Below, one piece after another: positions 21,848 to 44,367 of a stretch of DNA of 64,000 nucleotides. The stretch covers positions 1,872,270 to 1,936,269 of the forward strand of contig NC_015666.1 of NCBI RefSeq assembly GCF_000217715.1, read 5' to 3'. The DNA comes from Halopiger xanaduensis SH-6. GTDB taxonomy: Archaea > Halobacteriota > Halobacteria > Halobacteriales > Natrialbaceae. Position 1 is the first letter of the stretch, and every line of letters starts with the position of its first letter. Below the pieces are notes generated by a model. It saw only the letters and a program-made list of their open reading frames with translations, made no database searches and had not been told where the DNA came from. The position numbers were made by a program, and so were the translations under genes.

Positions 21848-21913
21848 CGCGACTCGCACGCAACCGACCGGCATCGTCGCAGCGCTTTTTTGGACTCGAG
21901 CCGACGTTCGCGT

Positions 21914-22726
21914 ATGAGCGATTCGACTGTCGACGACGAGCCCGGTCGCGTCTACGCCCCCGACGCCGAACACAGCTTCCCCGACGAGAAACTCAACGAG
22001 GTCCTCGAGTTCGTCGAGACCGACGAGGAGATCCAGACCTACCTCGAGGCCCAGAACGTCAACGCGGTCGATCGGATGCGGTACAACGATCACGGGGCGA
22101 AACACATCGAAATCGTCCGCAACCGGGCGCTCTGCCTCTACGACCTCCTGAAGGCCGGCGGCGTCGAGTTCCACGCCAAACAGCAGGGACTCGCGGAGGA
22201 AGACGAATCCGTCATCATCGCCCTGGCGGCGACGCTCCACGACGTCGGCCACGTCGTCCACCGGGACGAGCACGTCTACTACTCCATCCCGCTCGCGGCG
22301 GATATCCTCGATCGGGTACTGCCGAAGTTCTACGACCTCGCCGAGACCGTCCGCGTGAAAGGCGAGGTGCTCCACGCGATCCTCTGTCACCACACGGCCG
22401 AAACGCCGCTGACGACCGAGGCCGGCGTCATCCGCGTCGCCGACGCCCTCGATATGGAAAGCGGCCGCTCGCGCATCCCCTACGAGCAGGGCGGACGCGG
22501 GATCAACACCCTCTCGAGCCAAGCGATCCAGCGCGTCACCCTGACCGAGGGCGACAGCCGCCCCGTCATGGTCGAAATCGCGATGACCAACGCCGCCGGC
22601 GTCTACCAGGTCGACAACCTCCTCAAGGCGAAACTGCGCAACTCCGGCCTCGAGGACGAGATCCGGATCGTCGCGGTCAACACGAACGAGACGACCGACC
22701 AGCTCGTCGAGCGGATCGAGCTCTAA
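21914..22726 (+). CDS. HD-domain metal-dependent phosphohydrolase
   Basis: 270 residues with an HD domain: His near 60-64 (NDHGAKH), the HD pair His109-Asp110 in LHDVGH, HRDEH, a later CHH and VADALDMESGR. This suggests a phosphohydrolase acting on a nucleotide or other phosphate substrate, but the substrate is not evident. The C-terminus (about 190-270) is a small alpha/beta region. Its stop codon is followed directly by the structured repeat at 22727. Confidence 0.85.
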   Translation: MSDSTVDDEPGRVYAPDAEHSFPDEKLNEVLEFVETDEEIQTYLEAQNVNAVDRMRYNDHGAKHIEIVRNRALCLYDLLKAGGVEFHAKQQGLAEEDESVIIALAATLHDVGHVVHRDEHVYYSIPLAADILDRVLPKFYDLAETVRVKGEVLHAILCHHTAETPLTTEAGVIRVADALDMESGRSRIPYEQGGRGINTLSSQAIQRVTLTEGDSRPVMVEIAMTNAAGVYQVDNLLKAKLRNSGLEDEIRIVAVNTNETTDQLVERIEL

Positions 22727-22946
22727 AGACGAACTTTTCCTCTGCGGGTGCGCCACAGGCGCACCCGCAGAGGAAAACTTCGATGAAAAGCACTCCTCCT
22801 TCCCCGTCAGCCGCGCGTAGCGCGGCTTCTCGGTCAGTCGTCGGCCCGCTCGCAGCCGCCGGCTGCTCGCGGTGAGTGAATGGGGACAGCCTGCCCTCCC
22901 CCGAGTCACGGCTTCGCCGCAATTCGCGGCGAAACCGCTCCCGGCC
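22727..22946 (+). repeat. Structured intergenic repeat, copy A
   Basis: Begins AGACGAACTTTT directly after the stop of the HD gene. Contains a perfect 20-bp hairpin (22735-22754 with 22758-22777), then GATGAAAAGCA, CACTCCTCC, a 7-bp hairpin (22810-22826), GTCGTCGGCCCGCTCGC, a 6-bp hairpin around GCAGCC/GGCTGC, CCTGCCCTCCCC and GCTCCCGGCC. The same blocks occur in the same order in copy B at 42768-43215. It lies between convergent genes. No protein is supported. Confidence 0.8.
22735..22777. terminator. Perfect 20-bp hairpin, possible terminator
   Basis: A 20-bp inverted repeat with a 3-nt loop (ACA), TTTT on the left and AAAA on the right. Read on the minus strand the hairpin is followed by a T run, so it could stop transcription coming from 23004-23228; it could also shape the 3' end of the HD mRNA. 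Confidence 0.5.
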
Positions 22947-23003
22947 CAAAGGCAGTTAGAACTAAGCAGTCGATGTTATCGACGATGCAGCACGATCCGC
23001 AAT

Positions 23004-42284: not shown

Positions 42285-42758
42285 ATGGCGCTCGTCTCGT
42301 CGACCGTGCTCGTGACCGCCCCCCGTCGACTCCGGGAATTTTGGTCGTTCTACCGGCGCTATACGACCACCGCGATACACACGGCCGCGACGGTCGCACT
42401 GGCGATCTTCGGTATCCTCGTGTTCCTCGATCCCTGGTTCGCGGCGATCGCCATCGGCAGTTACGTCGTGCCACCCGTCGTCCTGTACGCCCTCGAGTTC
42501 GAACCGCCGTCGCCCGAGGGCACCTCGAGCGCCGATCACAATCGCAACGGCGAGACGGGGGCGACTCGAGACCGAGCCGTCGAACCGGTCGCCTCAACGC
42601 CGGAGACGGGCCGCTCGAGGGGTGGCGGTTCGGACACCGACACGGATACGGATACAGATTCGGACGACGGCGATACGGATTCGGATAGTGATAGCGACGA
42701 CGGTGACACGGACTCCGACAGCGATGACGGCGATACCGACTCTGACTCGGATTCGTGA
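42285..42758 (+). CDS. Membrane protein with Asp/Ser-repeat tail
   Basis: 157 residues: two membrane helices between about 30 and 75, then a cytoplasmic or exposed tail ending in 45 residues of Asp-Thr/Asp-Ser-Asp repeats encoded by repetitive DNA (about 42637-42755). The stop codon is 9 nt from structured repeat copy B. Function unknown. The tail may be variable between strains. Confidence 0.7.
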   Translation: MALVSSTVLVTAPRRLREFWSFYRRYTTTAIHTAATVALAIFGILVFLDPWFAAIAIGSYVVPPVVLYALEFEPPSPEGTSSADHNRNGETGATRDRAVEPVASTPETGRSRGGGSDTDTDTDTDSDDGDTDSDSDSDDGDTDSDSDDGDTDSDSDS

Positions 42759-42767
42759 CGGACGACC

Positions 42768-43215
42768 GGCCGGGAGCATGCTCGGCGGAATTCGTCGAGC
42801 ATGCAACACGGGGAAGGGCAGGCCCTCACACCGCTACTGACCGCGAGCGACCGGTGCGCGGCGCGACGCGCCGCGGAAAGACGAATAGCGCGGAACCGAA
42901 GGTTCCGCGTACCGTACGAACGGCGCGAAGCGCCGTGAGCAGACGGCCGAAGGCCGTGAGTCAGGGAGCGAGCGGGCCGACGACCGATGTGGAGGACGCT
43001 ACGCGTCCGGAACGGAGGGAGGAGTGTCTTCGTGAGCGGAGCGAACGAAGGCTCGGAAGTCGCAGCACGCGAACGGAGTGAGCAGGAACGTCTTCCGTTG
43101 CTTTTCATCAGAGCTAAGCGGAATCTTCGATTCCGCGAGGTCCGAGAGAGCGCGAAGCGCTCTCGAGATTTTGCCGAGGGCCGCCGGAGGCGGCCCGCAG
43201 CGCAAAAGTTCGTCT
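42768..43215 (-). repeat. Structured intergenic repeat, copy B
   Basis: On the minus strand it starts with AGACGAACTTTT directly after the stop of the acyl-CoA dehydrogenase gene and shares with copy A the blocks GATGAAAAGCA, CACTCCTCC, GTCGTCGGCCCGCTCGC, CCTGCCCT.CCC and GCTCCCGGCC. Between blocks is a series of perfect hairpins: 9 bp at 42776-42804, 9 bp at 42857-42875, 8 bp with GAA loop at 42890-42908, others such as ACGGCGC-GAA-GCGCCGT, ACGGCC-GAA-GGCCGT, GCGGAATC-TTC-GATTCCGC and GAGAGCGC-GAA-GCGCTCTC. At 448 bp it is twice the length of copy A. No protein is supported. Confidence 0.82.
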
Positions 43216-44367
43216 CTAGAAACCTTTCCCGAGCATTTCCCGCGCAATAACGTTCTTCTGGATCTCCGTCGTCCCCTCGTAGATCTGGGTGATCTTGGCG
43301 TCTCGGTAGAACCGCTCGACGGGGAAGTCGTCCACGTAGCCGGCGCCGCCGTGGATCTGGACGGCCTCGTCCGCGACGTCGACCGCGACGCGGGAGGCGT
43401 ACTCCTTGGCCATCGAGGCGAGTTTCGTGATGTCCTCACCCTGGTCGACGTTCCAGGCGGCCTTGTAGGTCAGGTTGCGCGCCGCTTCGGTGTCGGTCGC
43501 CATCTCCGCGAGTTTGTGCTGGATCGCCTGGAACTCCGAGATGGACTTGCCGAACTGCTCGCGGTCCTGGGCGTACTCGAGGGCCGCGCGGGTGGCACCC
43601 TTCGCGATGCCGACGCCCTGGGCGGCGACGGCGACGCGGGTTTCGTCGAAGAACTGCATTTGCTGCATGAAGGCGGCGTCGCGCGTGCCGATGAGGTTCT
43701 CCTCGGGGACGCGGACGTCGTCGAAGACGAGTTCGGCGGTGTCGGAGGCGCGGATGCCGAGTTTGCCGGAGATTTTCTCGGCCTCGAAGCCGTCGCGGTC
43801 GGATTCGACGACGATCTGGCTGAAGCCGTTGTACCGACCCTCGGCGTCGGGGTCGGTCTTACAGAGGACGACGAAGAAGTCGCCGACGGAGCCGTTGGTG
43901 ATCCACATCTTGTTTCCGTTGATGACCCACTCGTCGCCGTCCTTCTCCGCGCGCGTCGAAACGGAGGAGACGTCCGAACCGGTGTCGGGTTCCGAAATCG
44001 CCGCGCCCGAGATCTTCTCGCCGGCCGCGACCGGCTCGAGGAAGCGTTCCTTCTGGTCTTCGGTGCCGAAGTTCATGATCGCCTCGCAGCCGAAGGAAGT
44101 CGAGACGATCGAGAGGGCGATGCCGGGATCGTACGAGAACAGTTCCTCGGTGATGATCGCGGTGTCTAAGATCGAGTAGCCGGCGCCGCCGTACTCCATC
44201 GGGATGTGCGCGCCGGTCAGTCCCATCTCGGCGGCCTCGTCGACGATGTCGCGGGGGAACTTCTCCTCGCGGTCGTACTCCGCGGCGTGGGGGACGATTT
44301 CGTTTTCCGCGAACCGCTGGATTTCTTCTCGGATCTGCCGTTGTTCGTCCGTGAGACCGAACTCCAT
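43216..44367 (-). CDS. Acyl-CoA dehydrogenase
   Basis: FAD-dependent alpha,beta-dehydrogenation of acyl-CoA, first step of beta-oxidation. 383 residues, standard three-domain length. Signatures: AAISEPDTGSDVSSVST and WVINGNKMWITNGS in the beta domain, CDREQFGKSI-like QDREQFGKSISEFQ, and the catalytic Glu region QIYEGTTEIQKNVIAREML. Divergent from the hydroxyacyl-CoA dehydrogenase fusion gene with a shared 116-bp promoter region. Confidence 0.95.
   Translation of the reverse strand: MEFGLTDEQRQIREEIQRFAENEIVPHAAEYDREEKFPRDIVDEAAEMGLTGAHIPMEYGGAGYSILDTAIITEELFSYDPGIALSIVSTSFGCEAIMNFGTEDQKERFLEPVAAGEKISGAAISEPDTGSDVSSVSTRAEKDGDEWVINGNKMWITNGSVGDFFVVLCKTDPDAEGRYNGFSQIVVESDRDGFEAEKISGKLGIRASDTAELVFDDVRVPEENLIGTRDAAFMQQMQFFDETRVAVAAQGVGIAKGATRAALEYAQDREQFGKSISEFQAIQHKLAEMATDTEAARNLTYKAAWNVDQGEDITKLASMAKEYASRVAVDVADEAVQIHGGAGYVDDFPVERFYRDAKITQIYEGTTEIQKNVIAREMLGKGF

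Follow-up and report, generated by a model that had tools for sequence, protein, structure and literature searches.

The closest described systems are short dispersed elements and intergenic terminators. The PATEs of Haloquadratum walsbyi, palindrome-associated transposable elements related to IS605, are haloarchaeal, too short to encode a transposase and heterogeneous in sequence, with palindromes near their ends, a conserved terminal oligonucleotide and no inverted terminal repeats (PMC3119063). The REP/BIME sequences of bacteria are dispersed palindromic units in 3' intergenic space, with covarying or drifting stems and possible roles at mRNA 3' ends. REPs are reported to be 20-40 bp long, to exceed 100 copies as a rule and to be linked with RAYT transposases (PMC2817692, PMC3733652). 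MITEs carry terminal inverted repeats in common with an autonomous transposon and are flanked by a target duplication. The intergenic terminators of Haloferax volcanii are T stretches, at times accompanied by a hairpin; T5C is 95% efficient, a TC is conserved at the site, and a hairpin alone reaches 59% (PMC7237163).

In the window, a 64,000-nt stretch of the Halopiger xanaduensis SH-6 genome, an earlier note had described two copies of an intergenic repeat built from five short blocks. Both copies are real and hold the blocks in the same order (offsets 0, 55, 64, 110, 163 and 210 in the 220-nt copy; 0, 106, 189, 231, 393 and 438 in the 448-nt copy), but the count was incomplete. Two covariance models were built, R1 from 18 copies (3' module) and R2 from 16 copies (5' module), and R1 identified 13 copies. 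The genome measures 4.36 Mb, and every copy lies on the main chromosome, a 3.67-Mb contig. Each copy consists of hairpins (hp1 to hp4) and conserved anchors (S1 to S3), and the features of the two window copies are listed in Table 1. The twofold difference in length is accounted for by additional hairpin modules in copy 2, which are inserted between hp1 and S1, within S1 and within hp3. The sequence between the blocks, which had been called unrelated, is not simply so, and carries specific stems at fixed places.

Table 1. Features of the two type A elements in the window (positions count from the first nucleotide of the window)
Feature	Position	Strand	Basis
Copy 1, whole type A element, 220 nt	22727..22946	+	block order; R1 and R2 matches
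TAA stop of upstream HD-domain gene (21890-22726), abutted by copy 1	22724..22726	+	
Copy 1 hp1, CGAACTTTT...AAAACTTCG hairpin with C.C mismatch	22730..22782	+	R2 match 22730-22803; covariation
Copy 1 anchor S1, GATGAAAAGCACTCCTCC; complementary strand T4C	22782..22799	+	
Copy 1 hp2, variable hairpin AGCCGCGC-GTA-GCGCGGCT	22809..22827	+	sequence
Copy 1 anchor S2, GTCGTCGGCCCGCTCGC	22837..22853	+	
Copy 1 hp3, CCGC-TC-...-TC-GCGG hairpin	22846..22872	+	R1 alignment; covariation
Copy 1 anchor S3, GCCTGCCCTCCCCCG	22889..22903	+	
Copy 1 hp4, terminal hairpin, variable covarying stem, CCG...CGG closure	22901..22944	+	R1 match 22833-22947; covariation
Copy 1 terminal anchor CTCCCGGCC, right boundary	22938..22946	+	
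Copy 2, whole type A element, 448 nt, additional hairpin modules	42768..43215	-	block order; R1 and R2 matches
TAG stop of upstream acyl-CoA dehydrogenase gene (43216-44367), abutted by copy 2	43216..43218	-	
Copy 2 hp1	43147..43212	-	R2 match
Copy 2 anchor S1, first half, GATGAAAAGCA	43099..43109	-	
Copy 2 anchor S1, second half, CACTCCTCC	43018..43026	-	
Copy 2 anchor S2, GTCGTCGGCCCGCTCGC	42968..42984	-	
Copy 2 anchor S3 (CCTGCCC...)	42816..42822	-	
Copy 2 hp4, stem-loop GCATGCTCG-ACGAATTCCGC-CGAGCATGC	42776..42804	-	R1 match 42767-42882
Copy 2 terminal anchor GCTCCCGGCC	42768..42777	-	

On the gene strand, the type A element reads stop codon, 0-7 nt, hp1, S1, hp2, S2, hp3, S3, hp4 and end. 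The hp1 consensus is CGAA-C-TTTTGC ... GCAAAA-C-TTCG with a variable inner stem, and in copy 1 this hairpin contains the sole sense-strand T4 tract. S1 (GATGAAAAGCACTCCTCC) is followed by hp2, an optional or variable hairpin; in copy 2, the inserted module parts GATGAAAAGCA from CACTCCTCC. S2 (GTCGTCGGCCCGCTCGC) runs into hp3, whose consensus is CCGC-TC-GC-TC-stem-loop-stem-TC-GC-TC-GCGG and whose TC/TC internal loops are GA/GA on the opposite strand. About 18 free nucleotides separate hp3 from S3 (GCCTGCCCTYCCCCG). The terminal hairpin hp4 has a variable 9-bp stem and the loop TCGC-nnn-GCTC, and the element ends in CTCCCGGCC, in most cases with an A after it. Inside hp1 of some copies (L002, L184, L198, L325 and L338), an optional module (GTCGTTCGGAAGACGC-hairpin-TTCCGTGATGACGAGAC-hairpin-GTCTCGAACCACG) was observed; because L325 comes from another haloarchaeal family, the modules themselves must be old.

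In a search of 567 kb, R1 matched the window copies with E-values of 2.2e-15 (22727-22946) and 5.6e-10 (42768-43215) and R2 with 2.4e-15 and 1.5e-6, respectively, both models having been built mostly from copies other than these two. The lowest E-values reached 2e-22. In the 86 R1 matches, 95.7% of the cells were paired and 320 double changes were counted against 84.0 (sd 6.5) in shuffles, and the 96 R2 matches gave 118 double changes against 26.4, both alignments having been fitted to the models themselves. When the R1 structure was slid along the alignment as a control, pairing was found in 33-45% of the cells. Independently of any model, 183 terminal hairpins chosen by position alone comprised 103 distinct 5' arms, and 143 of 196 paired with at most one mismatch of nine. 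The anchor-like outer stem of hp1 compensates as well (CGAAC/CTTCG, CGACC/CGTCG, CAAAC/CTTTG and CCAAC/CTTGG). The stems are maintained by compensatory change, also at one site after lineages have split, and covariation above the controls, by which structured RNA genes are recognized, was found.

The two window stretches are almost certainly members of one selected structured family. The proposal of the earlier note, a selected RNA or DNA structure or a modular non-autonomous element, was borne out by the strong compensatory change in the stems and by the further copies. Short blocks in a GC-rich genome could resemble each other by chance or as remnants of a shared coding sequence, a reading whose probability is negligible in view of the E-values and the covariation. 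A protein-coding origin was rejected, and with it the common coding ancestor considered earlier: the anchor spacings fall over all three modulo 3 values, and at most 20 of 81 copies have any given frame open. At gathering scores, Rfam left the elements unmatched with nothing near threshold, the sole match in the window being a tRNA. In agreement with the earlier note, no fitting named family was found in Rfam or in the open-access papers searched. No exact element matches were found in IMG/VR, and phages gave no match.

The 17-mer GTCGTCGGCCCGCTCGC has nine exact matches in the source genome, eight of them inside elements with other blocks around, and its one-mismatch matches recovered an extra element (L013). 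The 18-mer GATGAAAAGCACTCCTCC was found as 88 exact stretches when 84,980 species genomes were searched. Most by far belong to Natrialbaceae, including Natrinema, Haloterrigena, Natronorubrum, Natrialba, Halostagnicola, Halovivax, Natronococcus and other genera; its few bacterial matches lacked any other block. Within Natrialbaceae, R1 matched copies in 22 of 29 genera. Of the 61 genomes, 46 are positive, with 1-14 copies each, and 15 are viable without any copy. Among relatives, the number of copies per genome ranged from 0 to 15. When 242 genomes were drawn from the whole class, 64 matched R1; beyond Natrialbaceae the matches were few and weaker, but they are genuine relatives. In family f7, copies lie behind TFS (KWREDDH stop) and, as judged by eye, Pan; in family f3, one copy behind uL16 keeps the S3 anchor and the terminal hairpin and has a different 5' part. 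Judged from this spread, retention over family-level divergence would correspond to a very long time.

Of 85 copies, 72 begin within 0-7 nt of a preceding stop codon (same-strand frames of at least 80 codons), namely TAA in 39, TAG in 29 and TGA in 4. The downstream gene is co-directional in 44 cases and convergent in 41, and spacing on the far side is loose, with 17-991 nt to a convergent gene; the stop-codon side is held tightly, and the other side is not. About 12 gene ends carry the element repeatedly across genera, and the host genes are core genes. The recurring hosts encode TbsP, a geranylgeranyl-reductase-family protein, EngB, TFS, Pan2, uL16, aIF-1A and acyl-CoA dehydrogenase, as well as two Lrp-type proteins and an HD-domain protein (named by eye); the DNA polymerase D large subunit, TrkH and IlvE were also named by eye. 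At the HD-domain gene end, the element was found in 8 of 11 sampled genomes. An exception is one recurring site, seen in 6 sampled genomes, where the flanking genes are divergent and the element adjoins no stop codon.

At the uL16 and HD gene ends, genomes with and without the element alternate, and the element-free spacers follow the same protein end with unrelated sequence. Full-element identity was uninformative as a test of orthology (0.820 vs 0.816) because the anchors dominate it; the variable stem alone was informative. For copies at the same site in different genera, the letters of the terminal stem agreed at 0.645, compared with 0.511 (sd 0.016) when site labels were permuted within genomes (0 of 1000 shuffles), and therefore most copies at one site descend from one insertion. 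Within sites, 75 additional Watson-Crick pair types arise, and this matched-pair change shows selection on structure after insertion. Because the element keeps a fixed place behind the stop codons of recurring housekeeping genes, vertical retention is more likely than present-day mobility. In several zero-copy genomes (G037, G006, G009, G034 and G055), the uL16 gene was seen to be doubled or in duplicated pieces.

A shorter form, type B (about 162 nt), has hp1-S1-S2-hp3 in common with type A and lacks S3 and hp4. Its ends are inverted-repeat-like (GTCACTACAG... / ...CTGTACTGATC), and its loci are scattered in chromosomes and on megaplasmids, apart from the type A sites. The copies L047, L048, L053, L063, L093, L104, L384 and others end in GTCACTACAGATGCA / TGCACACTGCTCCGCCTGTACTGATC. 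In the annotated plasmid records, nothing is annotated under the type B copies, and the module sequence TTCCGTGATGACGAGA was seen near but outside a type B copy on a Natronorubrum bangense plasmid (L093 945-960; L383 2273-2288). Type B resembles MITEs in its ends and its dispersal. However, no transposase or autonomous partner was found among the annotated neighbours of the plasmid copies, nor any clear target duplication, and type A lacks such ends; terminal inverted repeats shared with an autonomous transposon, together with a target duplication, were found for neither type.

Type A shares with PATEs the haloarchaeal host, the length too short for a transposase, the conserved terminal oligonucleotide and the heterogeneous sequence, and its palindromes likewise stand close to both termini (hp1 near the left end, hp4 near the right) with no inverted repeat between the ends. 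These features, along with one-sided orientation and patchy presence, fit a non-autonomous PATE/REP-type transposon (single-strand, hairpin-recognised and IS200/IS605-related), for which the stop TAR would be the target, the hairpins would serve transposase recognition and the housekeeping copies would be survivors. Such a transposon would also agree with the abutted stop being TAA or TAG in 68 of 72 copies, with the dispersal of type B, megaplasmids included, and with the stop codons at the uL16 and HD sites, where TGA closes the gene in 0 of 11 element-bearing and 13 of 36 element-free genomes (Fisher p 0.02, relatedness of the genomes being ignored). We nevertheless consider this reading unlikely. 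The source genome has no match to the Y1 transposase domain (IS200/IS605 TnpA, Y1_Tnp), yet it holds 13 copies. Among 23 relatives tested, 16 contained 1-9 Y1 transposases, whose number was uncorrelated with copy number (G048, 0 Y1 and 12 copies; G036, 0 Y1 and 9 copies); dependence on a Y1 transposase was rejected on this lack of correlation. Moreover, inheritance in place with compensation across genera is unexpected of passive fossils. At the uL16 and HD sites, where both presence and absence were seen, the flanks have diverged too far for an exact empty site to be aligned.

Type A departs from PATEs in several respects. It is built of four hairpins with conserved anchors in its interior, directly follows stop codons in a gene set that recurs from genus to genus, undergoes compensatory change in place and is present even where a genome has no Y1 transposase. 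Neither strain-specific insertions nor an IS605 partner were seen, and with Y1_Tnp no IS605-type relation or mobilisation in trans was detected. With REP/BIME sequences the element has in common the dispersed palindromic units in 3' intergenic space, the changing stems and the possible 3'-end roles, but it measures 220-450 nt instead of 20-40 bp, reaches only 15 copies and has no matching transposase of the RAYT (Y1 family) kind. It therefore resembles dispersed palindromic elements (PATE, REP/BIME) and lacks the transposase link, and for REP also the size and copy number. The best explanation is probably an ancient, formerly mobile element that has been retained at gene ends.

In the gene reading, mismatches in hp4 were A.C in 82 cases and G.T in 16 (183 hairpins), independently of the direction of the downstream gene. 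This excess points to folding of the complementary strand, since A.C mismatches are G.U or G.T there. A noncoding RNA read from that strand toward the gene end, folding hp4-hp3-hp2-hp1, would tolerate the G.U pairs in both downstream-gene contexts and would contain tandem GA/GA in place of the TC/TC loops. The complementary strand also folds more stably in 45 of 45 elements (mean z -4.69 vs -3.76). Against such an RNA, which seems improbable to us, no TATA-like A+T peak was found just outside the element, upstream of the would-be 5' end, and Rfam gave no match. Strand asymmetry is weak in hp1 and hp3. The unpaired anchors are also biased in this direction, though less strongly, with G to A above C to T, so part of the strand bias may be mutational.

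Single-sided and double changes numbered 29 to 320 in the 3' module, compared with 69 to 80 in SRP RNA of the same family. This scarcity of wobble changes, as if both strands must pair, and the confinement of the source-genome copies to the main chromosome are consistent with a structure at the DNA level, namely a cruciform or protein-bound hairpin that would organise the chromosome or absorb supercoiling behind active genes, like gyrase-bound BIMEs. A DNA structure is a doubtful explanation; it would leave the tight stop-codon spacing unexplained, it conflicts with the strand preference of hp4, and only about 13 copies exist with no visible spacing rule. DNA pairing had been deduced from near-absent G.U, and this argument was dropped after a larger sample gave the A.C excess in hp4 (hp1 and hp3 being near neutral).

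The placement of the T4 tracts hardly varies between copies. On the sense strand, one T4 tract was found in 60 of 81 copies. On the complementary strand, two T4 tracts were found in 65 of 81 copies, mostly 12 nt apart, and the tract in S1 reads TTTTC. The T stretch behind the gene, characteristic of haloarchaeal terminators, is present, with T4 being reached 5-8 nt inside the element. A run of four or more T occurred within 60 nt of the uL16 and HD stop codons in 9 of 11 genomes with the element vs 13 of 36 without. Haloarchaeal intergenic terminators are similar to the element in their place behind stop codons, T4 tracts, hairpins and complementary-strand TC (PMC7237163). They differ in being short T stretches with no conserved 220-nt multi-hairpin body and no dispersed homologous copies.

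The tight link to stop codons and the T tracts lead us to favour, tentatively and at somewhat less than even chances, a two-sided gene boundary, that is, a transcript end or insulator predicted from sequence. The type A element, ancient and dispersed, follows the stop codon of a housekeeping gene, is oriented as that gene is and precedes the next one. On the gene side, transcription would run into a T4 tract and a hairpin at about 8-16 nt past the stop codon; from the opposite side, incoming transcription would meet hp4, hp3 and hp2, then TTTTC and the second T4. The 3' ends of well-expressed genes would thereby be defined or protected in a compact genome. The element probably originated as a mobile element that was later kept by the host, and the shorter type B may be its mobile-looking cousin. 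Several observations count against a boundary: T4 has one T fewer than T5C, the tract tested in H. volcanii, the sense tract reads T4G and lies within a stem, the element is absent from 15 of 61 Natrialbaceae genomes, one recurring site has no adjoining stop codon, and the strand signals are mixed. In addition, conserved unpaired anchors would be superfluous in a plain terminator. A broader proposal, to which we give only just short of an even chance, is that the elements constitute an undescribed haloarchaea-wide class of multi-hairpin gene-boundary elements directly behind the stop codons of a fixed core-gene set, acting on transcription from both sides or yielding a stable opposite-strand RNA.

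The biology of archaeal 3' ends is poorly known, and haloarchaeal genomes are dense. With the element behind uL16, TFS, Pan2, DNA polymerase D and EngB, about a dozen natural test sites per genome are available, and related species supply natural plus/minus pairs. Should the element determine where transcripts end, or stop antisense transcription, it would be an insulator-like part in archaea; should it prove to be a transposon relic, long retention of mobile DNA at gene ends would be documented.

Some host sites showed individual features. Two elements in opposite orientation, 1.8 kb apart, lie behind neighbouring Lrp-type genes (G000:C3:1221381-1223424, L184), and both Lrp sites are occupied in several other genera too. 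The host with a GIEDFM-stop end (L237 and other copies) looks by eye like the DNA polymerase D large subunit with an apparent intein. In the window, copy 2 nearly fills the gap between its two flanking stop codons, and the gene convergent to it (42285-42758, plus strand) ends in a run of Asp/Ser codons.
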